From positions 124,001 through 188,000 of the forward strand of contig BQMO01000005.1 in NCBI GenBank assembly GCA_022180725.1: a DNA stretch of 64,000 nucleotides. Reading direction: 5' to 3'. Source of the stretch: Phycisphaerae bacterium. Lineage in GTDB: Bacteria > Planctomycetota > Phycisphaerae > Phycisphaerales > UBA1924. The notes beneath the pieces are model-generated. The model had not been told where the DNA came from, did not search any database, and saw only the letters and a list, made by a program, of their open reading frames with translations. The translations under genes and the position numbers were made by a program. This document shows, one piece after another, positions 8,252 through 55,253 of this stretch; within the stretch, counting starts at the first letter, position 1; every line of letters begins with the position of its first letter.

Positions 8252-9325
8252 CTATTCAATCTCCGGCAGCGCGCACGACCCGCCGTGCTTGAGGTGGTAG
8301 TCCTGGTGGTATTCCTCCGCGGGCCAGAACTCACCCGCCTCCGCGATCGGCACCACCTGCGTCGCCACGCCGTAGTGCAGGTACCGCGGCGTCTTCCGCT
8401 GCGCTTCGATGAACGCCGCCGCCGCCGCCTGCTGCCCCGCGTCCGCCGTGAAGATCGCCGAGCGGTACTGCGTCCCCACGTCCGGCCCCTGCCGGTTCAC
8501 CTGCGACGGATTGTGAAACTTGAAGAACCACTCCAGCAACTGCCCGTACGTCACCCGCGCGGGGTCGAACACCACCTTCACCGTCTCGGCGTGCTGCGTC
8601 GTGCCTTCGCACACTTGCTTGTACGTCGGGTTCGCCACCTTCCCGCCCATGTACCCGCTCACCGCGTCGATCACCCCCGGCACTTGCTGAAACCTGTCCT
8701 CCACCCCCCAGAAGCACCCGCCCGCGAAGTACGCCGTCTCGGTCTTCACCGGCAACGCCCCCGCCGGCAGCGCCGTGTCCTTCTCGACAAACGTCAGCGA
8801 CACGCTGTTCAGGCAGTACCGCCGACCTGTCGGCTTCGGGCCATCGTCGAAGACGTGCCCTAAGTGTCCGCCGCACCGCGCGCACAGAATCTCCGTCCGC
8901 ACCATGCCGTACGAACGATCCGACTCTTCGCGAATGTGCGCCGGGTCGAACGGCTGGAAGAAACTCGGCCAGCCCGTCCCGCTGTCGAACTTCGCCCCGG
9001 ACGAAAACAGCGGCAGGTCGCACAGCCGGCAGAGGTACGTCCCGTCCTTCTTGTTGTCGACCAGATTCCCGCAGAACGCCCGCTCCGTCCCCTTCGCCAG
9101 AATCACCGCCGCTTCTTCCGGCGTCAATCCCTTGGCCAACTCGTCGATCCGGGTCTGCCCGAGCGGCGTCACGTCCCGCCCCGACTTCGAGTACTTCACC
9201 ACAGTCTCCTTCTGCTTCGTCACCGACGGCGATTCGCCCGTGCCCGGCTGACGCGCCAGCCCCACCACCGCCGCACACGCGGCCAGCCCCAGCACGCCCA
9301 GTACCAATGTTCGCATGTTCCGCAT
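8252..9325 (-). CDS. msrBA: MsrB-MsrA fusion, peptide methionine sulfoxide reductase
   Basis: A 357-residue exported bifunctional repair enzyme that reduces both stereoisomers of methionine sulfoxide. Residues 1-25 are a membrane anchor or lipoprotein signal (GLAAC, C17). The MsrB domain (about 45-180) has the zinc cysteines C99, C102, C148 and C151, the GTGWPSF motif and the catalytic cysteine in RRYCLNSVSL (C171). The MsrA domain (about 195-345) has GGCFWGVE with catalytic C204, and a C-terminal cysteine in GGSCALPE likely to be the resolving one. The B-then-A order is the reverse of PilB-type fusions. Export implies repair of envelope proteins. An alternative start is 9 nt downstream. Confidence 0.93.
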   Translation of the reverse strand: MRNMRTLVLGVLGLAACAAVVGLARQPGTGESPSVTKQKETVVKYSKSGRDVTPLGQTRIDELAKGLTPEEAAVILAKGTERAFCGNLVDNKKDGTYLCRLCDLPLFSSGAKFDSGTGWPSFFQPFDPAHIREESDRSYGMVRTEILCARCGGHLGHVFDDGPKPTGRRYCLNSVSLTFVEKDTALPAGALPVKTETAYFAGGCFWGVEDRFQQVPGVIDAVSGYMGGKVANPTYKQVCEGTTQHAETVKVVFDPARVTYGQLLEWFFKFHNPSQVNRQGPDVGTQYRSAIFTADAGQQAAAAAFIEAQRKTPRYLHYGVATQVVPIAEAGEFWPAEEYHQDYHLKHGGSCALPEIE

Positions 9326-9397
9326 GACGTCGTCCCCGGCCACAGCCACCCCCGCGGCGACCCATTCGTACGCCCGCATCCCGCGCCGGGTTCTCCC

Positions 9398-13410: not shown

Positions 13411-14562
13411 TCAGTACGCACACTGCTTCCGCAGCGATACCGGCGCCGTGAAACTCGCCGCGAGAATCCCCGCGATCCGCTCGCCCGTGCGCCCGTCCCC
13501 GTACGGGTGTGTAATCGACGCGCGATCAATCCGCCGCGCCGCGTCCACACCTTCGCGCACCGCCACCGTCCGTTCCGCCTCGACGTGCACGACGTTCGCG
13601 CACCGCTCGCGCCCGGCCTGCCGACGCCCCACGTCCACCGCGGGCACGCCCAGCACCGCGCCCTCGATCAACGCCGCGGAACTGTTCCCCACCACCACCC
13701 CGCCGCTCGACGCCAGTCGCTTCAGCACACCCACAAACTCCCGTCGAGGCAGGTGCTCGCGCACCACGATCGACCCGCCCGCCTGCTCGATGGCCCGCAG
13801 CACACCCTCGCGCCCCGCGTCCAGGTTCGGGTGTAACGCCAGCACGCGCTCCCCGGTCAACGCCGCGAGCACCTGCGCCGCCCCGGCCTCCTCCGTCTCC
13901 GCGTCCCGCCCGATCGGGTGCATCACGAACACCGCCGTCGGCTCGCCCACGTCCGCCCAGCGCGCGTCGTCCGCCGGCGGGATCGTGCCCAGGTCGTCCA
14001 CCGCCGGCGACCCCACGACGTGCACCCGCGCGGGGTCTTCCCCCATCCGCACGATCCGCTCGGCGCTCGCCGCCGTCGCCGCCAGATGCAGGTGCGCGAG
14101 TTTCGTGATCGCGTGCCGCATCGCCTCGTCGGCCACACCCTCGGCCCGATCCCCGCCGTGCACGTGCGCCAGCGCGAACCCCCCCACGCTCGCCGCGCTC
14201 GCCGCCGCGAACGCCTCGATGCGATCCCCCAGCACAACCACCCACCCCGGGCGCAGCCCCTCAAACGCCCGTCCGAACCGCGCCACCCCCGCCGCCAGCG
14301 CCTCCACGTCCGCCGCCCGGCCCGTGCGCCCCGCCACCTGCATCGGCACAGACGCCGCCACCGGAAACGCCGCCTTCACCTCCCGATACGTCAGCCCGGG
14401 CGACACCAGGTGACTCCCTGCCGCTACTACCGCCAACTCCAGCCCCGGCTGCCGCGCCACCGCGCGCATCACCGGCGCCAGCAGCCCGAACTCCGCCCGG
14501 CTGCCCGTGACGACCGCGATCCGCGATCGCACGCCCGTGTCAAGATCGATCGGCCCGGTCAT
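13411..14562 (-). CDS. neuC: UDP-N-acetylglucosamine 2-epimerase, hydrolysing (NeuC)
   Basis: A 383-residue GT-B fold enzyme that converts a UDP-HexNAc to free N-acetylmannosamine (or a related sugar), the first step to sialic-acid-like nonulosonates. NeuC features are VTGSRAEFGLLAPV at the N-terminus, LGDRIEAFAA (GDR 112-114), HVHGGDRAEG (about 133-141), and GNSSAALIEGAVLGVPAVDV with GRRQAGRERCANV near 285-320. That last block is the NeuC/WecB UDP-binding region in its NeuC form. A TACGCT hexamer 6 nt before the ATG implies a leaderless mRNA. It lies downstream of neuA and neuB, separated from neuB by a large secreted-protein gene. Confidence 0.9.
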   Translation of the reverse strand: MTGPIDLDTGVRSRIAVVTGSRAEFGLLAPVMRAVARQPGLELAVVAAGSHLVSPGLTYREVKAAFPVAASVPMQVAGRTGRAADVEALAAGVARFGRAFEGLRPGWVVVLGDRIEAFAAASAASVGGFALAHVHGGDRAEGVADEAMRHAITKLAHLHLAATAASAERIVRMGEDPARVHVVGSPAVDDLGTIPPADDARWADVGEPTAVFVMHPIGRDAETEEAGAAQVLAALTGERVLALHPNLDAGREGVLRAIEQAGGSIVVREHLPRREFVGVLKRLASSGGVVVGNSSAALIEGAVLGVPAVDVGRRQAGRERCANVVHVEAERTVAVREGVDAARRIDRASITHPYGDGRTGERIAGILAASFTAPVSLRKQCAY

Positions 14563-14568
14563 GCCCCG

Positions 14569-14574
14569 AGCGTA
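14569..14574 (-). promoter_or_regulatory. -10 element TACGCT of leaderless neuC
   Basis: The hexamer ends 6 nt before the ATG at 14562 on the minus strand, with no Shine-Dalgarno site. Confidence 0.5.
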
Positions 14575-14612
14575 TCGCGCCCGCGTTCCCCTGCGCCCAA
14601 CACCCGCCGCCG

Positions 14613-17210
14613 TCACGGCCCGGCGCTGATCGTTGCCCCGATCAGGAAACTCACCTCCACCGTGCCCGCCGTCAGCCCCGATGGCACGCCCCCCGTCAGT
14701 CGAACCTGCACCGCCAGCGGCTCGTCCAGTGTTTCCGGCTCCACCACGGTCATCCACTTGTCGTCCGGGGTCCGCACCGTGGTCCCGGCCGTCATCGCGT
14801 TCACCAGCGACGCGAACCGTGTCGGGTGCACCACCGACCCCGCCGCAAGCGTCGCCGACGTCACGCCCCCGCCCGCGAACGGCTCGATCACCCGGAACTT
14901 CACCGCCTGGCACACCCCGCCGCGCGTCGCCCGCATCCGGTCGCCGTACCGCGGCAGGCTCGCCAGGTTCAGCGTCGAGGTGCCGGTGCCCGTTGATGGA
15001 AAATCCGACGCCTTCAGCACCACCGTCACCCACTCGGGGTTCAACGCCACCGTCGGGTTCCCCGTCACGGTCGTGTCCGCCCAGAGGAACGCGCCGTTCC
15101 CGGCACGCGACCAGTTCGACACCACCGCGTCCACCTGCCCGATGAACTTCGCCGCACCATCCCCGTGAATGGTCAGATTGTTGAACAGGAATCGGCTGCG
15201 CGTATCCGCCGCCGCCCCGACGCTCGGCGGGCCCGAGACCACCCGCACCAGCCCCTCCGTCATCGTGTTCGTCAGCACGCCGTCCACCACGCGCCCATAC
15301 CCGGCCGAGCGCAGCACCAGGAACGACGCCTGCCCGTCGCCGACCGCCACATTGTCGCTCGCGATCAGCCGCCGCACCGTGATCCACGCGCTGCCCGGCA
15401 TCGACGGCGCCAGCACCGCGAAACTCCCCGCCGGCGTCTGTGACCGCATCTCGCAATCGCGGATCACCAGCGTGTCCACGTTCGACTGCACCTCGATCAG
15501 GTTCGCCCCCGATCCGCTCTGCCGCAGGTTCCGCACGCCGCTCAGTTCCAGCCGGCCGATCCCCGGCATGCCCTGCCCGACCCGCACGCCCGTCATCGTC
15601 GGCGGAACGTTCACCCCGCGCACGACCGCGTTCTCCAGCCCCCACGCACCCAGGTCGATCACCGCGTACCCCGGCGACCCGCCCGTGATCGTGATGTTCT
15701 CGATCTCCAGGTTGCGGATCGGCAGGTCGTACATCCCCACATCCACCGTCGCCCGCATGCCAAACGCGTTCTCGCGCAGCCGCCCGTGAAGATTCCGCAC
15801 GCGAATCCCGTCCGCGTACGCCCCGCTCGGCCCCGCGCGCCCCACGATCCGGAACGGCTCGAAACTGTCCGTGAACGACACCCCGTCCACCAGCACGTCC
15901 GTGATCGGCCCCTCCACCATCGCCGCGTCCCAGTACGCCGGATAGTCGTACTGCGTGAACGCGATCATGTTGTCGCCGGTTGTCCCGCTGATGTCGAGCA
16001 GCTTCACCCAGGAATGCCGCCCTGAAAAGTGAAGCCCGTCGCTCTTCGTCCCTCCGTACGCCGAGGCGCCGCGGAACCGCACCCCGCGGCACACCGTCCC
16101 CTCCCCGTTGTTGAACAGCACGCAGTACTTCCCCGTCGCCCCCGTGCCCGGCGCCACCCCCACGCCCGTTTCGAACGTGATGTTCTCGATCGTCAGGTCG
16201 CGGTAGTTGACAAACCGGCACGTGTGCTGATCGTCGGGCGCCAGCGCCTCCGCCCGCGCGATCGTTCCACCCCCGCCGATCCACACATTCTCCGTCCGAG
16301 TCCCCTCGTTGAAACGGAACAGCGCCCCGCTACCGCTGGTCGCCGACGCGTACTGCGCATGCCGGATCACCCGCACCCCCGGCCCGATCCAGACCACCCG
16401 CCCCGAGGGGATCACCACCGCCGCCCCCAGGTAGTAATCCCCCGGCGCTGTGAACATCACCGCGCCGTGCGCGTTCAGCAGCGATTGCACCACGCCCGCG
16501 TCCGCCTGCGCTTCGGCCAGCGTCGGCGAGGCCGCACGCGCAACCACCCCATGATCCGCCACGTCCGCGCGGCTCGTCGCGCTCATCGGCCCGGGTGGTC
16601 CCATCGGCCCGACAGGCCCCGGCGGTCCGGTCGCGCCCGCAGGACCCGGAGCGCCCGCCGGCCCAGGCGTGCCCTCCGGTCCGGTCGGCCCTGTGGGCCC
16701 GGGTGGGCCTGTTTCACCACGCTCTCCCGCGGGCCCGATTGGACCCGGCGGCCCAACGGGTCCGGGCGGCCCCGGCGGCGCATTCAACGCCATTACCGCG
16801 TACGGCACCGCCGTCACCGCTTGCCGCGGCGTGAGCGTCTCGTACCCCGGCTCTTGCCCTTGCCCATCCCATGCCGGCCATCGCACGCGAACCTCGAGGT
16901 ACCGCGCCGACCCGTCGAACGACCCGGCCTCAAAGTCCAGCGTTGCCGCGAACTCGCCCCGCCGCAAGTCGATCGCGTTCGCCGCCAACATTGGCCCGAT
17001 CGCCGATCCTCCGTCCGCCGCGTCGAACAGCACAAACACCAAATCCGCCGCTCCCTCCACCGGCACGCCGCTCTGCTCCAGCCGCCCTTGGTACGTGAAC
17101 GCCGCGCTGATCGGCTGCCCACCCGTGCGCACCGACACCCCGGCCAACACCAGCGCCGCAGACATCATCCACGTCATCCACCGTTCTCGGACCATGTGCG
17201 ATCCAGCCAC
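14613..17210 (-). CDS. secreted protein with collagen-like stalk and beta-helix domain
   Basis: An exported protein of about 865 residues. A signal peptide (about 5-35) is followed by an FTYQGRL...[14 protein letters not shown] domain (about 38-145) that also begins the protein at 51707-53671. Then come 21 uninterrupted Gly-X-Y triplets (collagen-like, encoded at 16584-16772). A long right-handed beta-helix/pectate-lyase-like region fills about residues 225-720, with repeated short strands such as [13 protein letters not shown] and [14 protein letters not shown] beta-rich tail closes the protein. The plan resembles a trimeric phage-type tail spike on a collagen stalk. It lies between neuB and neuC. 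The GTG at 17210 is 7 nt after a -10 hexamer; an in-frame ATG at 17195 is the alternative. Its ligand or enzyme activity is unknown. Confidence 0.8.
16584..16772 (-). repeat. collagen-like Gly-X-Y repeat tract (21 triplets)
   Basis: The minus strand encodes 63 residues of perfect Gly-X-Y periodicity, rich in GPP, GPV, GPT and GPA. On DNA this is a 9-nt-phased GGNCCN-rich tract. Such tracts fold as a triple helix, so the protein is probably a trimer, and they are prone to slippage. Confidence 0.95.
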
Positions 17211-17217
17211 CCGCCGC

Positions 17218-17223
17218 ACTCTA
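17218..17223 (-). promoter_or_regulatory. -10 element TAGAGT of a leaderless gene
   Basis: TAGAGT ends 7 nt before the in-frame GTG at 17210. This is why that start is preferred over the ATG at 17195. Confidence 0.4.
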
Positions 17224-17261
17224 CCACCTCGGCCCGATTCAGCAACTGCTTCTTTCCACAC

Positions 17262-18332
17262 TCAACGCGGCGCCATCGTCGGAACCAACACATCCGCCTC
17301 ACACAGCGGCATGTCCGCCTCGACGTCCCGCGCCAACCGGCACCCCGCCACCCGCTCCATCTCATACGGCGGCAGGCCCGTGCCCGGCCTCTTGATCGTC
17401 AGGTCCGCTCGCCGCACGACTTCCCCCGCGCGCATCGCCCGAGCCGACGTCAGCGACTGCCGCGACACCCGCCGCACGTCCTGCTCGATCGCCAGCACCA
17501 CCTTCTCAATCGTGCCTTCCCTCGTCCTTGCGCCACGCCGCCACCCTTCCCGCGCGCCGCGCACGTACGCCGCAAACTCCTCCGGCCCCAGCGATGCGCC
17601 GTGATCCGGCCCCGTCGCGTTCCGGTCGTACGTCAAGTGCTTCTCCAACACCATCGCCCCCAGTCCCGCCATCACCCCGCCGAACTCCACGCCGGTCGTG
17701 TGGTCGCTGTACCCCACCACCCCGCCCGGGAACACGCCGCTGATCGCCATCATCCCCAGCGGCGCCGCGTGCTCGATCGGCGTCGGGTACGCGCTCACAC
17801 ACTGCAGCACGCCCAGCCGATCCTTCACGCCCGCCATCCACCCGAGCATCCGCTCGACTTCCGCCAGTGTGCTCGCGCCCGTGCTTACCAGCATCGGCCG
17901 GCCCGTCGCCGCGAGCGCGTCCAGCAACGGCCTGTTGATCACGTCCGGGCTGGCCGTCTTGTACGCGTCCCACGGCACGCGTTCCGCCTCGTTTACCAAC
18001 TCCACGCTGAACACGCTCACGATCGCGTGCACGCCCAATCGGTGTGCCTCCGCCGCGCACGCCTCCAGCGCCCCGATCGGCAACTCCAGCCGACGCAGCA
18101 TCGCGACCGGATCGGTCTCGCCCGCCGCCCGCTGATACGCCGCCAGTTTCGCCGCCCGGCTCATCAGCCGGTCTGCCTCGAACAACTGGAACTTCACGGC
18201 GTCGGCCCCGGCCCGCGCCGCCAGCCGCGTCAGTTCCAGCGCCCGATCCGCCGAGCCGTCGTGGTTCACCCCCACCTCCGCGATGACGTACGGCGGGAAC
18301 TCCGACCCGATCTCGCGCCCCCCGATCCTCAT
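17262..18332 (-). CDS. neuB: N-acetylneuraminate synthase family protein (NeuB)
   Basis: A 356-residue TIM-barrel enzyme that condenses phosphoenolpyruvate with ManNAc or a related sugar to give a nine-carbon nonulosonic acid. Motifs are [10 protein letters not shown] (17-26), [11 protein letters not shown] (about 44-54), the [14 protein letters not shown] segment, GYSDHTTG, and [19 protein letters not shown] near residue 245. The last is the manganese/PEP region. An antifreeze-like SAF domain (about 290-350) closes it, as in true NeuB. It overlaps neuA by 4 bases and is translationally coupled to it. The exact product (Neu5Ac, legionaminate or other) cannot be read from the sequence. Confidence 0.92.
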
Positions 18333-19060
18333 CGCGCCCCCCGCAACACCGCCTCCGCTACCACCACGTCTATCGCCGAATCAATGTCCACCACGCTCCC
18401 CTCCGGGTTGATCACCCCGCGCCGATCCTTCCCGAAGAAGGCGTGCGGCCCGGGCGGCACCCCCGGCACCTCCAGCATCAGCGCCGCCCGCGTAAGCGCG
18501 ATCACCCCGCCGTCCGGCACGTGCGCCGCCGGCAAGTCCTGCCGCCGGAACATCCCGTGATTCAGTACGTCGCCCTCCCACGGCCGAACATGCCCGCCCT
18601 CCCCCACCACCGCCGTCCACCACGGATGATGCTTCCCCACCGCCTGGTAACTCTGCACGCTGTCACACCCCGTCTCCCGCAGCAACTTCACTGCGCGGTC
18701 CGTCAGGTCCGCCGGCCGCACCGGCACATTCGCGTACAACATCACGAACGCCGCGTCTCGTGCATGCGTCGAGCGCCCCTCGTCCAACGTCCGCGCCGCG
18801 TGCCGCGCCGCATCGTCCACGCGCGCCGTGTCGCTCGCCAGGTCCGCCGGCCGCTCCACCACCTCCGCGCCCAGCTCGCGCGCCACCGCCGCCGCCCGCG
18901 CATCATCCGTGGACACCACCACCCGCGAAACCTCGCGCGACCGCTGTGCGTGTTCAACTGTCCACGCGATGCACGGCCGGCCCGCCACCTCACGCACGTT
19001 CTTCCCGGGCACGCCCTTGCTCCCCGCCCGCGCCAGGATGATCGCCGTGGCCCCCGTCAT
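18329..19060 (-). CDS. neuA: acylneuraminate cytidylyltransferase (NeuA)
   Basis: A 243-residue nucleotidyltransferase that activates the nonulosonic acid with CTP to the CMP-sugar used by glycosyltransferases. The N-terminal P-loop-like ILARAGSKGVPGKN (8-21) is the CMP-NeuAc synthetase signature. STDDARAAAVARELGAEV, RPADLASDTA and the C-terminal NPEGSVVDIDSAIDVVVAEA block also fit. Four-base overlaps with maf upstream and neuB downstream make maf-neuA-neuB a tightly coupled operon. Confidence 0.92.
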   Translation of the reverse strand: MTGATAIILARAGSKGVPGKNVREVAGRPCIAWTVEHAQRSREVSRVVVSTDDARAAAVARELGAEVVERPADLASDTARVDDAARHAARTLDEGRSTHARDAAFVMLYANVPVRPADLTDRAVKLLRETGCDSVQSYQAVGKHHPWWTAVVGEGGHVRPWEGDVLNHGMFRRQDLPAAHVPDGGVIALTRAALMLEVPGVPPGPHAFFGKDRRGVINPEGSVVDIDSAIDVVVAEAVLRGAR

Positions 19061-22000
19061 GCGTCCCCCACTCCCACCAGCGCATCACCCAGCGGCAACG
19101 GCTCGCCATCATCCTCGCTCGCCACAAGCACCCGCCGCGACCACCCGAGCCGCTCCCGCGCCGCCTCGGGCAGCGGCAACGCCTCGATCCGTGCCCCCGC
19201 CGGCGAATCCGGCCGGGCATCGATCACGCACGCCCCGCACGCCAGCAGCCACCGCGTATAGAACGGCTCCACCTGCTCCAGCACCTCATCGCGCCGCGTC
19301 ATCCGCGGCACGACCCACCGCACCCCCCCTCTCCGCGGGAAGGGGCCGGGGGGTGGGTTGACGGTCACCTCATCACCACTCGCCGCGCGCGTCGACACGA
19401 TCAACGTCTCCAACGCCGCCCGCGCCGTCTCGTACCCATCGTCTCCCGTCACCATGCCATACCCCGTGGCGTCTTCCGCGAGCAGGTCCACGCTCACCAC
19501 GTCCGCCAGCGCCAACACGCGCCGCGTCGCCGCCCCCGCGCGCGCCAGCCGTGTCCGCACGTGCACCGCGCTCGCCCCGTACGCCCGCGCCATCGCCGCC
19601 AGTTCCGTCGCCTGCGGCACGTCCAGCACATCGCACCCGTCCCCCTCGATCGTCACCGCCGGCGCATCCCCCGCCGCCATCGCCTCGCGCAGCCGCAACC
19701 CCGTCGCGCCCCGCGACGATACCCGCGACACGCGCAGCGTGAGCGCCTCCACCGGCCCCTCGCGGCGCAGCCCCGCCGCCATCGCCGCCCGTGCAACCTC
19801 CTCCGCGCCCGCCGACACCACGCCCGCGCCCAGCGCCTCGGCGAGCATCGCCAACCGTGCCGCATGCACAGGCGTATCGGGGATGAACCGTACCAGACAA
19901 TCCCGCACGCCCGGCGGCACCGCCACGCACGCCGGCTTGGCGATCGGATCACCCTGCGGCGCCACCACCTGATACCCGAGCAAGCCCCCCACCGTCGCCC
20001 CCGGTGACGCCAGCACCCCACCTACCCGCGCGAACTCTTCCACCAGCCCGCGCGACAGCAGGCACGGCGCCAAGCCCGGCGGCGCCTGCGTGAACGTCAT
20101 CGGGTGCCCCTCGGGGCGCTCTTCGTGCCGCTCGATCACCGTATCCACCACCGCCGGATCGACCAAGCACCAATCAGGCCCCAGCACCACCGCCGCGTCG
20201 ATCTCGAACTGAGCCATCGCCCCGGCACACGCCGCCGCGTCGAATACCTCGTCGTACGCCGACAGGTTCGCCACCCCGCCGCGCCAGCAGTGCCGCGCCC
20301 ACGCGCGCCCCGCCGCCACCTTCCGCCGCGCCCGATCGTCCGCGTTCCACCACGCAAACTCCACGCGAAGACCCGCCGGCAATGTCCCGGCGATCGCGCG
20401 CGTCGCCTCGACGTCGCGGCACAGCAGCGCCACGCCCCCCAGCCGCTCACTCCGCGCCAGTCGCGCCAGCATCAGTTGCAGCGCGTTCTGCCCGCCCGCG
20501 ATCGGCCTCGCCAGGTCACGCGCCACGCCCAGCCCGCCCCTTTCATGATCCACGCACACCACCGCCCACGCGCGCCGGGTTTCACGACGCGCCTTCACCT
20601 CAGGGATGGCGTCCCGTGTCACGGGTCTGCCCGTGGTCAGCGCCGCCAGGGCGTCGTCCATCATCCGCCCCGTCAGGTCCGCGGCGTCCGCCAGCCACTC
20701 CACGTTCCGCACGTCGCGCTCGATCTCCCGCGCCTGCCGCTCCAGCCCGCTCACGCCTTCCGCCTCGATCGCGCGGTCCGCCTTGTACCGGTTCAACTGC
20801 CCCGTCTGGTTCACATGCTGCACCAGCCAGTACGCCGGGTCGCCCGCCGCACGCCGCCCGATCTCGTTCACCCGCTCGATCAGTTCGTTCACTCGACGCT
20901 GGTCCATCGACGCGTGCTTCATCTCGCGCAGCACGTCCCCCGCCTCGCGGCTCAGCGTCGCGACCCGCCGCGCGCCCAACCCTAACTCCTGTAACCGATG
21001 ACGTACATCCTCCGCCGGAGATACCGTGCGGCTTGGGAGCATTCCCCGCGAGATGCTCGTCGCGCCCTTCGCGCCCCGGCACGACGCCCCGCTCAGCGCC
21101 TCCCGCAGCGTCATCGCCTCCGTGTGCCGCTTGCGGACACCGCCCTCGGTCGCGTCGATCGTCCGCAGCCCGCGCGCCGCGTCGCGTCCGAAATCCCGCT
21201 CGAACTGCACCAGGTACGTGCTCATCTGCTCGTCGGTGTAGATCCGCCGACCGTGCACGTCCTCCGCGGGACGCAGCAGGTTCCGCATCCGTGCGATCCG
21301 CTGCCACTCCAGCATCTCCAGCGTGTTGAACTCGTTCAACTCCCCCGCCCAGACGTTGTGAATCGCCGCGCCCGGTCCGTAGTACTGTCCGTCCGTGAAA
21401 CCAAGGTCCTGCCCGATCAGGATCACCGGGTCGCACCCCAGGTGCCGCGCCAGGTAGTACGCCAGGTGCGCCACCGTCGCGCCCGGCGGCAGCCGCCCCT
21501 TCGGCGTCGCCAGCCCCGGCCCCAGGATCGCGTCGAGCGTCTCGTCCCCCACGCACCGCACCGCGCCCGGCCACGCCGCCAGAATCGCCGGGTTGCACTT
21601 GGGTTCCACCACCAGCGTCACGCCCTCCACCGCCTCCCGCGTCAGCCCCTCGTAGAACCGCGCGCTGATCTCGTGATAGTCCAGCGCCGTCACATAGTCC
21701 GGCCTGATCCCCTTCGCCAGCAACGGCTTCAGCACCGTCTGCACCGCGATCACCACCACGCGCTCGCGCACCGTCGAATCCCGCAGTAGGTCCACGTTCC
21801 GCCGCAGACTCGGCCCCGCCGACACCACCACCGCCGCCCGTCCCGCGTCCACCCCCGCCAACGCCGCCACGCCCGGCGAGCCCGCGTACGCCGCGGCGTT
21901 CTGCAGCAGGTTCCGCACCGTCACGTCCATCTGCACCAGAGTCGTCACCACGTTCGTCCGCACCGCCTTCATCACCTGCGCGAACGTCGCCGCGAACCGC

Positions 22001-22539
22001 GGGCGTGTCTCACCTAACCGCGCCGTGCTCGGCGGGTGGTCCAGCATCGCCACCCCGCTCGCCAGCACCGCCTCCATCCCCTGCACCGATGCCGCCAGCG
22101 CGCCAGCATCGTCCGACGACGTCACCAGCACGACCGGACTCATCGTCAACCACGTCGAGCAATCCGCCCGCTCGAACACCGCCCGCAACAGCCCCACGTC
22201 CGGCTCGAAGACCACGATCACGCCGTGCGTCTTCACCCGCCGCGCCAGCGCCGCCACGTGATGCCCCGCGCCGAATCCCATCACCACCACCGCCGCCTTC
22301 GCGACGATGTCCACCCCCGCCGCCAACCGCTCCCCCTCCGCGATCGGCCCGCGCGCGCTCGCCAGCCGGCGCGCCAGGCCATCCACCTCGACGGTTCCCG
22401 TCAGCCCGCCGTCCGGCGCTGTCTCCAGCACGACGCCGCACGCCGGAACCGCCGCGCGGATGGCCCCCGCCGCCGCCGCGTTCCGACGCCCGAGCGCCGA
22501 GAGGTTTCGATTCAGCATCACCGCCCGATCTTCAATCAC
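19057..22539 (-). CDS. Maf-type (DUF115) glycosyltransferase with large C-terminal extension
   Basis: A protein of about 1160 residues. The first about 600 residues match motility-associated factor (Maf) proteins, which transfer nonulosonic acids to flagellin. They start with a LNRNLSALGRRN opening, then VVMGFGAGHHV, the VVVSAGPSLRRNVDLL site (about 238-252) and LIGQDLGFTDGQYYG (about 375-388). From about residue 690 there is an extra region resembling an SpsF/NTP-transferase-like Rossmann domain, followed by a stretch like the barrel of spiro-SPASM radical-SAM proteins but without any CxxxCxxC cluster. The GTG at 22539 has GGAGG 8 nt upstream; ATGs at 22557 and 22518 are alternatives. It is the first gene of maf-neuA-neuB. 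Confidence 0.82.
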   Translation of the reverse strand: MIEDRAVMLNRNLSALGRRNAAAAGAIRAAVPACGVVLETAPDGGLTGTVEVDGLARRLASARGPIAEGERLAAGVDIVAKAAVVVMGFGAGHHVAALARRVKTHGVIVVFEPDVGLLRAVFERADCSTWLTMSPVVLVTSSDDAGALAASVQGMEAVLASGVAMLDHPPSTARLGETRPRFAATFAQVMKAVRTNVVTTLVQMDVTVRNLLQNAAAYAGSPGVAALAGVDAGRAAVVVSAGPSLRRNVDLLRDSTVRERVVVIAVQTVLKPLLAKGIRPDYVTALDYHEISARFYEGLTREAVEGVTLVVEPKCNPAILAAWPGAVRCVGDETLDAILGPGLATPKGRLPPGATVAHLAYYLARHLGCDPVILIGQDLGFTDGQYYGPGAAIHNVWAGELNEFNTLEMLEWQRIARMRNLLRPAEDVHGRRIYTDEQMSTYLVQFERDFGRDAARGLRTIDATEGGVRKRHTEAMTLREALSGASCRGAKGATSISRGMLPSRTVSPAEDVRHRLQELGLGARRVATLSREAGDVLREMKHASMDQRRVNELIERVNEIGRRAAGDPAYWLVQHVNQTGQLNRYKADRAIEAEGVSGLERQAREIERDVRNVEWLADAADLTGRMMDDALAALTTGRPVTRDAIPEVKARRETRRAWAVVCVDHERGGLGVARDLARPIAGGQNALQLMLARLARSERLGGVALLCRDVEATRAIAGTLPAGLRVEFAWWNADDRARRKVAAGRAWARHCWRGGVANLSAYDEVFDAAACAGAMAQFEIDAAVVLGPDWCLVDPAVVDTVIERHEERPEGHPMTFTQAPPGLAPCLLSRGLVEEFARVGGVLASPGATVGGLLGYQVVAPQGDPIAKPACVAVPPGVRDCLVRFIPDTPVHAARLAMLAEALGAGVVSAGAEEVARAAMAAGLRREGPVEALTLRVSRVSSRGATGLRLREAMAAGDAPAVTIEGDGCDVLDVPQATELAAMARAYGASAVHVRTRLARAGAATRRVLALADVVSVDLLAEDATGYGMVTGDDGYETARAALETLIVSTRAASGDEVTVNPPPGPFPRRGGVRWVVPRMTRRDEVLEQVEPFYTRWLLACGACVIDARPDSPAGARIEALPLPEAARERLGWSRRVLVASEDDGEPLPLGDALVGVGDA
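19321..19361. repeat. GC-rich hairpin-type element inside the maf gene
   Basis: A near-palindromic run of C and G blocks encodes the odd peptide NPPPGPFPRRGG in an otherwise ordinary stretch. It looks like the CCCCTCTCC...GGAAGGGGCCGGGGGGT dispersed intergenic repeats common in GC-rich genomes, here inserted in frame. The call is from appearance only. Confidence 0.4.
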
Positions 22540-22575
22540 ACGCACGCCCTCCGCAACCATTCGCTGCCAACGCCG

Positions 22576-54968: not shown

Positions 54969-55253
54969 ATGGACATGGAGATCAACGCGTGCAACGCCGC
55001 CGGGCTTGGACGTGTCGCCGATGCGGCCCCGATGCGGGCCGCGCGCCACCCCGACGCTGACGTATCCGCCCCTCGCCGTGGAGCCGACCGCGTGGACCTT
55101 TCCCCCGACGCCCAACTGCTGGCCTCGCTGCGCGACCTGCCCGCGCGCCAGGACCTTGTCGACGCCATCCGCGGAGAGATCGCCCGCGGGGAATACGACA
55201 CCCCGGAGAAACTCGACGCCGCCCTCGAGGAACTCCTCCGCGACGTGCTGTAG
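54969..55253 (+). CDS. flgM: anti-sigma-28 factor FlgM-like
   Basis: A 94-residue protein with a disordered, basic N-terminal half. The C-terminal half (DRVDLSPDAQLLASLRDL, RQDLVDAIRGEIARGEYDT and a final ALEELLRDVL helix) matches FlgM, which holds the flagellar sigma factor until the hook is complete. GAAGGAG upstream of the ATG decides the start within a longer open frame. No other flagellar genes are adjacent. It implies a flagellated organism and gives context for the Maf/Neu locus at 13-22 kb. Confidence 0.8.
   Translation: MDMEINACNAAGLGRVADAAPMRAARHPDADVSAPRRGADRVDLSPDAQLLASLRDLPARQDLVDAIRGEIARGEYDTPEKLDAALEELLRDVL

Follow-up and report, generated by a model that had tools for sequence, protein, structure and literature searches.

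The window (the whole stretch of DNA analysed, 64,000 nt) comes from a Phycisphaerales MAG of 3.54 Mb in 30 contigs, 95% complete. Its nearest named relatives are Phycisphaerales MAGs, in agreement with an earlier note on this DNA that called it a probable planctomycete. Five genes on the minus strand, all read in one direction, form the locus under study; coordinates are those of the window.

19057 to 22518, minus strand: maf (fused), 1153 aa, with the ATG start at 22518 or, alternatively, at 22560 or 22605
18329 to 19060, minus strand: neuA, CMP-nonulosonate cytidylyltransferase; CTP_transf_3 (73 bits)
17262 to 18332, minus strand: neuB, nonulosonate synthase; NeuB (191 bits) and SAF domains
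14613 to 17195 (ORF from 17261), minus strand: secreted collagen-like gene; Collagen (32.5 bits), signal-peptide-like start
13411 to 14562, minus strand: neuC, hydrolysing UDP-GlcNAc-type 2-epimerase; Epimerase_2 (188 bits)

The Pfam matches of all five genes (PF01973 for maf, and those listed) exceed the Pfam cut-offs, and maf/neuA and neuA/neuB overlap by 4 nt each, so the compact run of maf, neuA, neuB, a fibre gene and neuC described previously is borne out by gene calls and Pfam. Its end had been placed at 22539; the locus itself stands, but this position is not among the ATG starts of maf. NeuC passes the TIGR03568 cut-off (278.8 bits), while NeuB and NeuA match NCBIfam relatives (TIGR03569 and PseF, respectively) with scores under the equivalog cut-offs. 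The nearest solved structures of NeuA are CMP-Neu5Ac synthetases, and those of NeuC are hydrolysing 2-epimerases, the closest of which are annotated as diNAcBac 2-epimerases.

Gene order in related loci

Gene order was compared across 63 related maf loci with a downstream sequence of 4.5 kb or more. On the same strand, maf is followed by neuA in 58 loci, by neuA and neuB in 52 (a recurrence that exceeds chance), and by all three of neuA, neuB and neuC in 41. Where the three trail maf, neuB and neuC are mostly separated by 200 nt or less; in some relatives, neuB or neuC lies away from the maf locus. The conserved order is maf-neuA-neuB-neuC, without the fibre gene.

The collagen-like gene between neuB and neuC was seen in this genome only, with no match in any of 80 related loci, nor at six neuB loci of the same genus. 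It was rejected as a component of the system, and its earlier inclusion as a locus member is not upheld. Its product starts with a signal-like N-terminus and contains collagen G-P-P repeats, and no Pfam family matches its long C-terminal region. An alcohol dehydrogenase gene downstream of neuC, likewise without a match in the same 80 and six loci, was also rejected.

The second half of the Maf protein

What the earlier note overlooked is the length of this Maf, roughly double the usual one, and the second protein attached to it, here called NTR, which has a nucleotidyltransferase fold and a radical-SAM-like fold.

20770 to 22518, minus strand: Maf glycosyltransferase part (aa 1-583); PF01973 121 bits, 5mu5 by profile and fold
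19057 to 20592, minus strand: NTR part (aa ~643-1153), fused to Maf; hhalign to stand-alone NTR, AF2 pLDDT 88.9
19849 to 20586, minus strand: nucleotidyltransferase-like domain of NTR (aa ~645-890); Foldseek, WRGG and G-x-D-W motifs
19189 to 19779, minus strand: radical-SAM-like domain of NTR (aa ~914-1110); Foldseek matches SuiB and BlsE, no CxxxCxxC

A profile comparison links the Maf part to 5mu5, a solved Maf structure (E = 1.9e-12), and 5mu5 is also the best Foldseek match of its AF2 model (pLDDT 87.4; E = 9.2e-17); human ST8SiaIII, a sialyltransferase, appears weakly among the Foldseek matches. With a PF01973 core in a Maf-like fold, linkage to nonulosonate genes and occurrence in flagellated genomes, the protein is assigned to the Maf family. 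A search against plasmids gave only one weak Campylobacter match. The Maf_flag10/PF01973 core is shared with Maf of Clostridium botulinum (PMC11339370) and with 5mu5 of Magnetospirillum, but the 5mu5 chain has 666 aa and no C-terminal NTR, compared to 1153 aa here.

By profile alignment, the 1153 aa protein is a fusion, the second half of which equals a stand-alone NTR gene of relatives: hhalign of the fused C-termini against stand-alone NTR gave a probability of 100 and an E-value of 2e-89 over 514 columns. Frames with an intact Maf longer than 1000 aa occur in three families of the order (f1, f4 and f5), and most other Maf frames of the class have 640-920 aa. In 18 class loci from other families, a stand-alone NTR gene (roughly 500-600 aa) directly follows maf, usually ahead of neuA. 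Outside the class, Maf is present in all 15 genomes of the phylum with a long NTR match, and NTR adjoins maf in nine of the ten loci examined, the tenth being a Maf-NTR fusion. In most of the other Planctomycetota examined that carry Maf, NTR is a gene of its own right behind maf. The genome with this fusion (G506) has an unfused Maf-NTR pair as well as the fusion, which is of 1169 aa and retains the SPASM cysteines (L217:3604-7110 (-), the fusion, and L218:2670-6181 (+)). Because it keeps these cysteines and occurs in a genome that also has an unfused pair, this second fusion, which belongs to another family, is probably independent, so that fusion would have arisen more than once.

By the logic of gene fusions, joining in one lineage and adjacency elsewhere argue that NTR and Maf are partners, physically or functionally. 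For the question of how Maf enzymes select flagellin, and whether they need partners to do so, NTR offers a direct candidate that can be tested: it is joined to Maf in one lineage, probably again elsewhere, and adjacent to it in many. A literature search covering few subscription journals found no description of NTR and none of flagellin glycosylation in planctomycetes.

The nucleotidyltransferase-like domain has Foldseek matches to the cytidylyltransferase 6oew, KdsB, IspD and NeuA, and its pocket residues are strongly conserved (an invariant W-R-G-G, a D and an R). The family signature is nonetheless weak, with just two of ten stand-alone NTR copies passing NTP_transf_3. Of the same ten, seven are above the cut-off for SPASM and four for Radical_SAM, a match that is sub-threshold in the fused relatives. 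Profile searches with stand-alone NTR matched BtrN and SkfB, and searches of NTR against plasmids returned only radical SAM/SPASM proteins, covering less than half of the query. NTR thus has a fold in common with BtrN, SkfB and SuiB, and its stand-alone copies carry SPASM cysteines (four invariant in the SPASM region, and the tail cysteines in 15 of 15). Unlike radical SAM/SPASM proteins, however, every NTR examined lacks the CxxxCxxC motif, including all 69 fused C-termini and each stand-alone copy, which is why the reading of NTR as a standard radical SAM enzyme was rejected. The fused, window-type copies also lack the SPASM cysteine tail (0 of 69), so that Fe-S chemistry is dispensable there.

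NTR might still be catalytic, either as a nucleotidyltransferase for a second sugar or as a SAM-dependent modifier with an unusual cluster, altering the glycan or flagellin. The conserved pocket, the four invariant cysteines of the stand-alone copies and the BtrN and SkfB matches are in keeping with such a role, but the missing CxxxCxxC, the loss of the cysteine tail on fusion and the weak nucleotidyltransferase signature make it unlikely. Most likely, NTR is a non-catalytic physical partner of Maf rather than a radical SAM enzyme. A more specific proposal is tentative: NTR may be an obligate Maf partner built from two inactivated enzyme folds, one from a CMP-sugar nucleotidyltransferase and the other from a radical SAM/SPASM protein, and recruited in Planctomycetota as an adaptor that presents flagellin or the CMP-nonulosonate to Maf and that, together with the P-D type of NeuB described below, makes an undescribed flagellar nonulosonate.

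The NeuB specificity site and the sugar

All the catalytic positions of NmNeuB that were checked (E25, K53, Q55, K129, S132, S213-D214-H215, E234, H236, D247 and R314) are kept in the NeuB of the window, as read from an alignment in which the NmNeuB and SpsE rows were transcribed by hand with at least one error at a non-diagnostic position. The substrate-specificity site differs from those of known types.

17943 to 17960, minus strand: K-T-A-S-P-D motif (aa 125-130) of NeuB, substrate-specificity site; clade-specific K-x-A-S-P-D

In NeuB-type synthases, the C2-specificity site has Gly in Neu and Leg enzymes and Phe in Pse enzymes, and the Neu type has Asn or Tyr at position 184 (PMC7371886). 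The references used here show G-E in Neu and LegB/C-linked enzymes and F-E in Pse enzymes. At the same site, NeuB orthologues of the order have Pro in 85 of 87 cases followed by Asp in all 87. In this NeuB, Pro-Asp replaces the Gly-Glu of a Neu-type pocket, and position 184 is Ser. One Azospirillum reference, the type of which is uncertain, also has Asp instead of Glu. Outside the class, the residues in NeuBs beside Maf-NTR are G-E or C-E, and the P-D motif therefore looks derived in Phycisphaerae.

A NeuB tree, as suggested in the earlier note, placed the class-level NeuBs of maf loci in one clade (98/88) apart from the Neu, Leg and Pse references, within the limits of a small reference set, Leg and Pse labels taken from neighbouring genes, and an N. 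meningitidis row on a long branch. The separate clade was obtained, but assignment of the sugar from the tree failed, as the references were few and those for Neu and Leg were mixed. The sugar of this clade, with its altered specificity site, is not readable from the known Neu, Leg or Pse rules. One NeuB within the planctomycete clade comes from a sequence titled Verrucomicrobiia bacterium (L104); the probable cause is an error in binning or naming, or else a transfer.

The locus encodes NeuC, NeuB and NeuA, the set of the Neu5Ac pathway, and the earlier statement that it has no dehydratase/aminotransferase pair holds, also across about 100 related loci, where no PseC, LegC or PseG relative and just a few dehydratase/epimerase-type matches were found. 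The same three synthetic activities, again without dehydratase or aminotransferase, make up neuB-neuA-neuC (Neu5Ac) of E. coli K1, the nonulosonate product of which goes to the capsule; the E. coli K1 NeuB, however, belongs to another clade and has a G-E pocket in place of P-D. A pseudaminic acid pathway is not indicated (no linked PseC or PseG, no equivalog match, Pro rather than Phe in NeuB), nor is a legionaminic one, as LegB and LegC have only distant relatives, located elsewhere and below the cut-offs. With so short a pathway, a product derived from ManNAc is favoured, but the NeuB pocket bars a firm assignment, and the Neu5Ac-like sugar proposed earlier as the simplest product is not supported, given a pocket motif unlike the Neu, Leg and Pse references.

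The earlier note had taken dehydratase and aminotransferase genes elsewhere in the genome, showing a different sugar, as grounds against its proposal. The genome does have one dehydratase of the WbpM type and two DegT aminotransferases, but these are not linked to the locus, reach none of the Pse/Leg equivalog cut-offs and do not demonstrate a different sugar. They could feed a diNAcBac-like precursor into NeuC and NeuB, making the product legionaminic-type or another di-amino nonulosonate, which would fit the non-Neu pocket and the diNAcBac annotation of the nearest NeuC structures. This is a doubtful reading, since the three genes lie on other contigs and score far under the PseB, LegB, PseC and LegC cut-offs, their kind is rare or absent at the related loci, and the wide conservation of NeuA, NeuB and NeuC only argues for a short pathway.

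Flagellin and the proposed pathway

The genome has three full-length flagellin genes and two flagellin-like genes, so the absence of flagellin, which would have spoken against a flagellar role, does not apply. The flgM gene reported near 54.9 kb was also confirmed, with PF04316 above its cut-off.

55086 to 55199, plus strand: matched part of flgM, anti-sigma factor of flagellar genes; PF04316 28.1 bits (cut-off 25)

Of the 198 genomes of the class that were surveyed, 94 have Maf, 142 have flagellin and 112 have NeuB. In counts that ignore shared ancestry, flagellin is present in 92 of the 94 genomes with Maf, and Maf in 90 of the 93 with a close NeuB. The Maf matches of the two genomes without flagellin are weak and partial. 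Within family f4, all four flagellated genomes have Maf and NeuB, and all six without flagellin have neither intact. Maf is absent from 50 flagellated genomes, so flagella in the class do not depend on the module.

This tracking of Maf and NeuB with flagellin, the flagellin genes themselves, and the fold and profile matches to 5mu5 support the nonulosonate glycosylation of flagellin in a planctomycete that had been proposed. The activities of Maf, NeuA, NeuB and NeuC, and flagellin as acceptor, are predicted from the genes of a MAG. The pathway would start with NeuC, hydrolysing and epimerising a UDP-HexNAc (in the simplest case UDP-GlcNAc, giving ManNAc). NeuB would condense this product with PEP, forming a nonulosonic acid, which NeuA would activate with CTP. 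Before flagellin is exported, Maf would then transfer the activated nonulosonate to its Ser/Thr residues, and the fused NTR would act as the partner of Maf, for example by keeping hold of flagellin or of the CMP-sugar. With a probability of about 0.8, the locus is a module for the O-glycosylation of flagellin in the cytoplasm, known in kind but new in its Maf partner.

Maf-dependent flagellin glycosylation in the cytoplasm has been shown experimentally in Aeromonas (PMC4065374), and Maf of Clostridium transfers nonulosonates to flagellin (PMC11339370). The Maf1/flm system of Aeromonas caviae (PMC4065374) likewise combines Maf with nonulosonate synthesis genes acting on flagellin, but it uses pseudaminic acid, whereas the present locus has NeuC, no PseB, PseC or PseG, and a Maf that carries NTR.

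Closer in taxonomy are the Nemodlikiaceae, also Phycisphaerae, for which PMC6461901 mentions flagella and inferred sialic acids on external surfaces; its account of this is one sentence on surface decoration that names no Maf, NTR or NeuB type. It is compatible with a module that sialylates a cell-surface polysaccharide or another protein instead of flagellin, as are the weaker NeuB copies found in genomes without flagellin or Maf. Such a target is nevertheless improbable for the module studied here, as close NeuB follows Maf, Maf follows flagellin, and the two were lost jointly with flagellin in family f4.

In two genomes of that family that have lost flagellin (G245 and G296), weak partial Maf matches lie inside long open frames and are possibly decaying or repurposed copies.

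Class-wide, flagellins have about 500 aa where Maf is present and about 270-450 aa where it is not. Among the 150 best-scoring frames, the median length is 504 aa in genomes with Maf compared to 397 aa in the others, which suggests that an extra central region or domain of flagellin accompanies the glycosylation module. Elsewhere in the window (8252 to 9379, minus strand), a single protein joins SelR and PMSR domains, a methionine sulfoxide reductase fusion.
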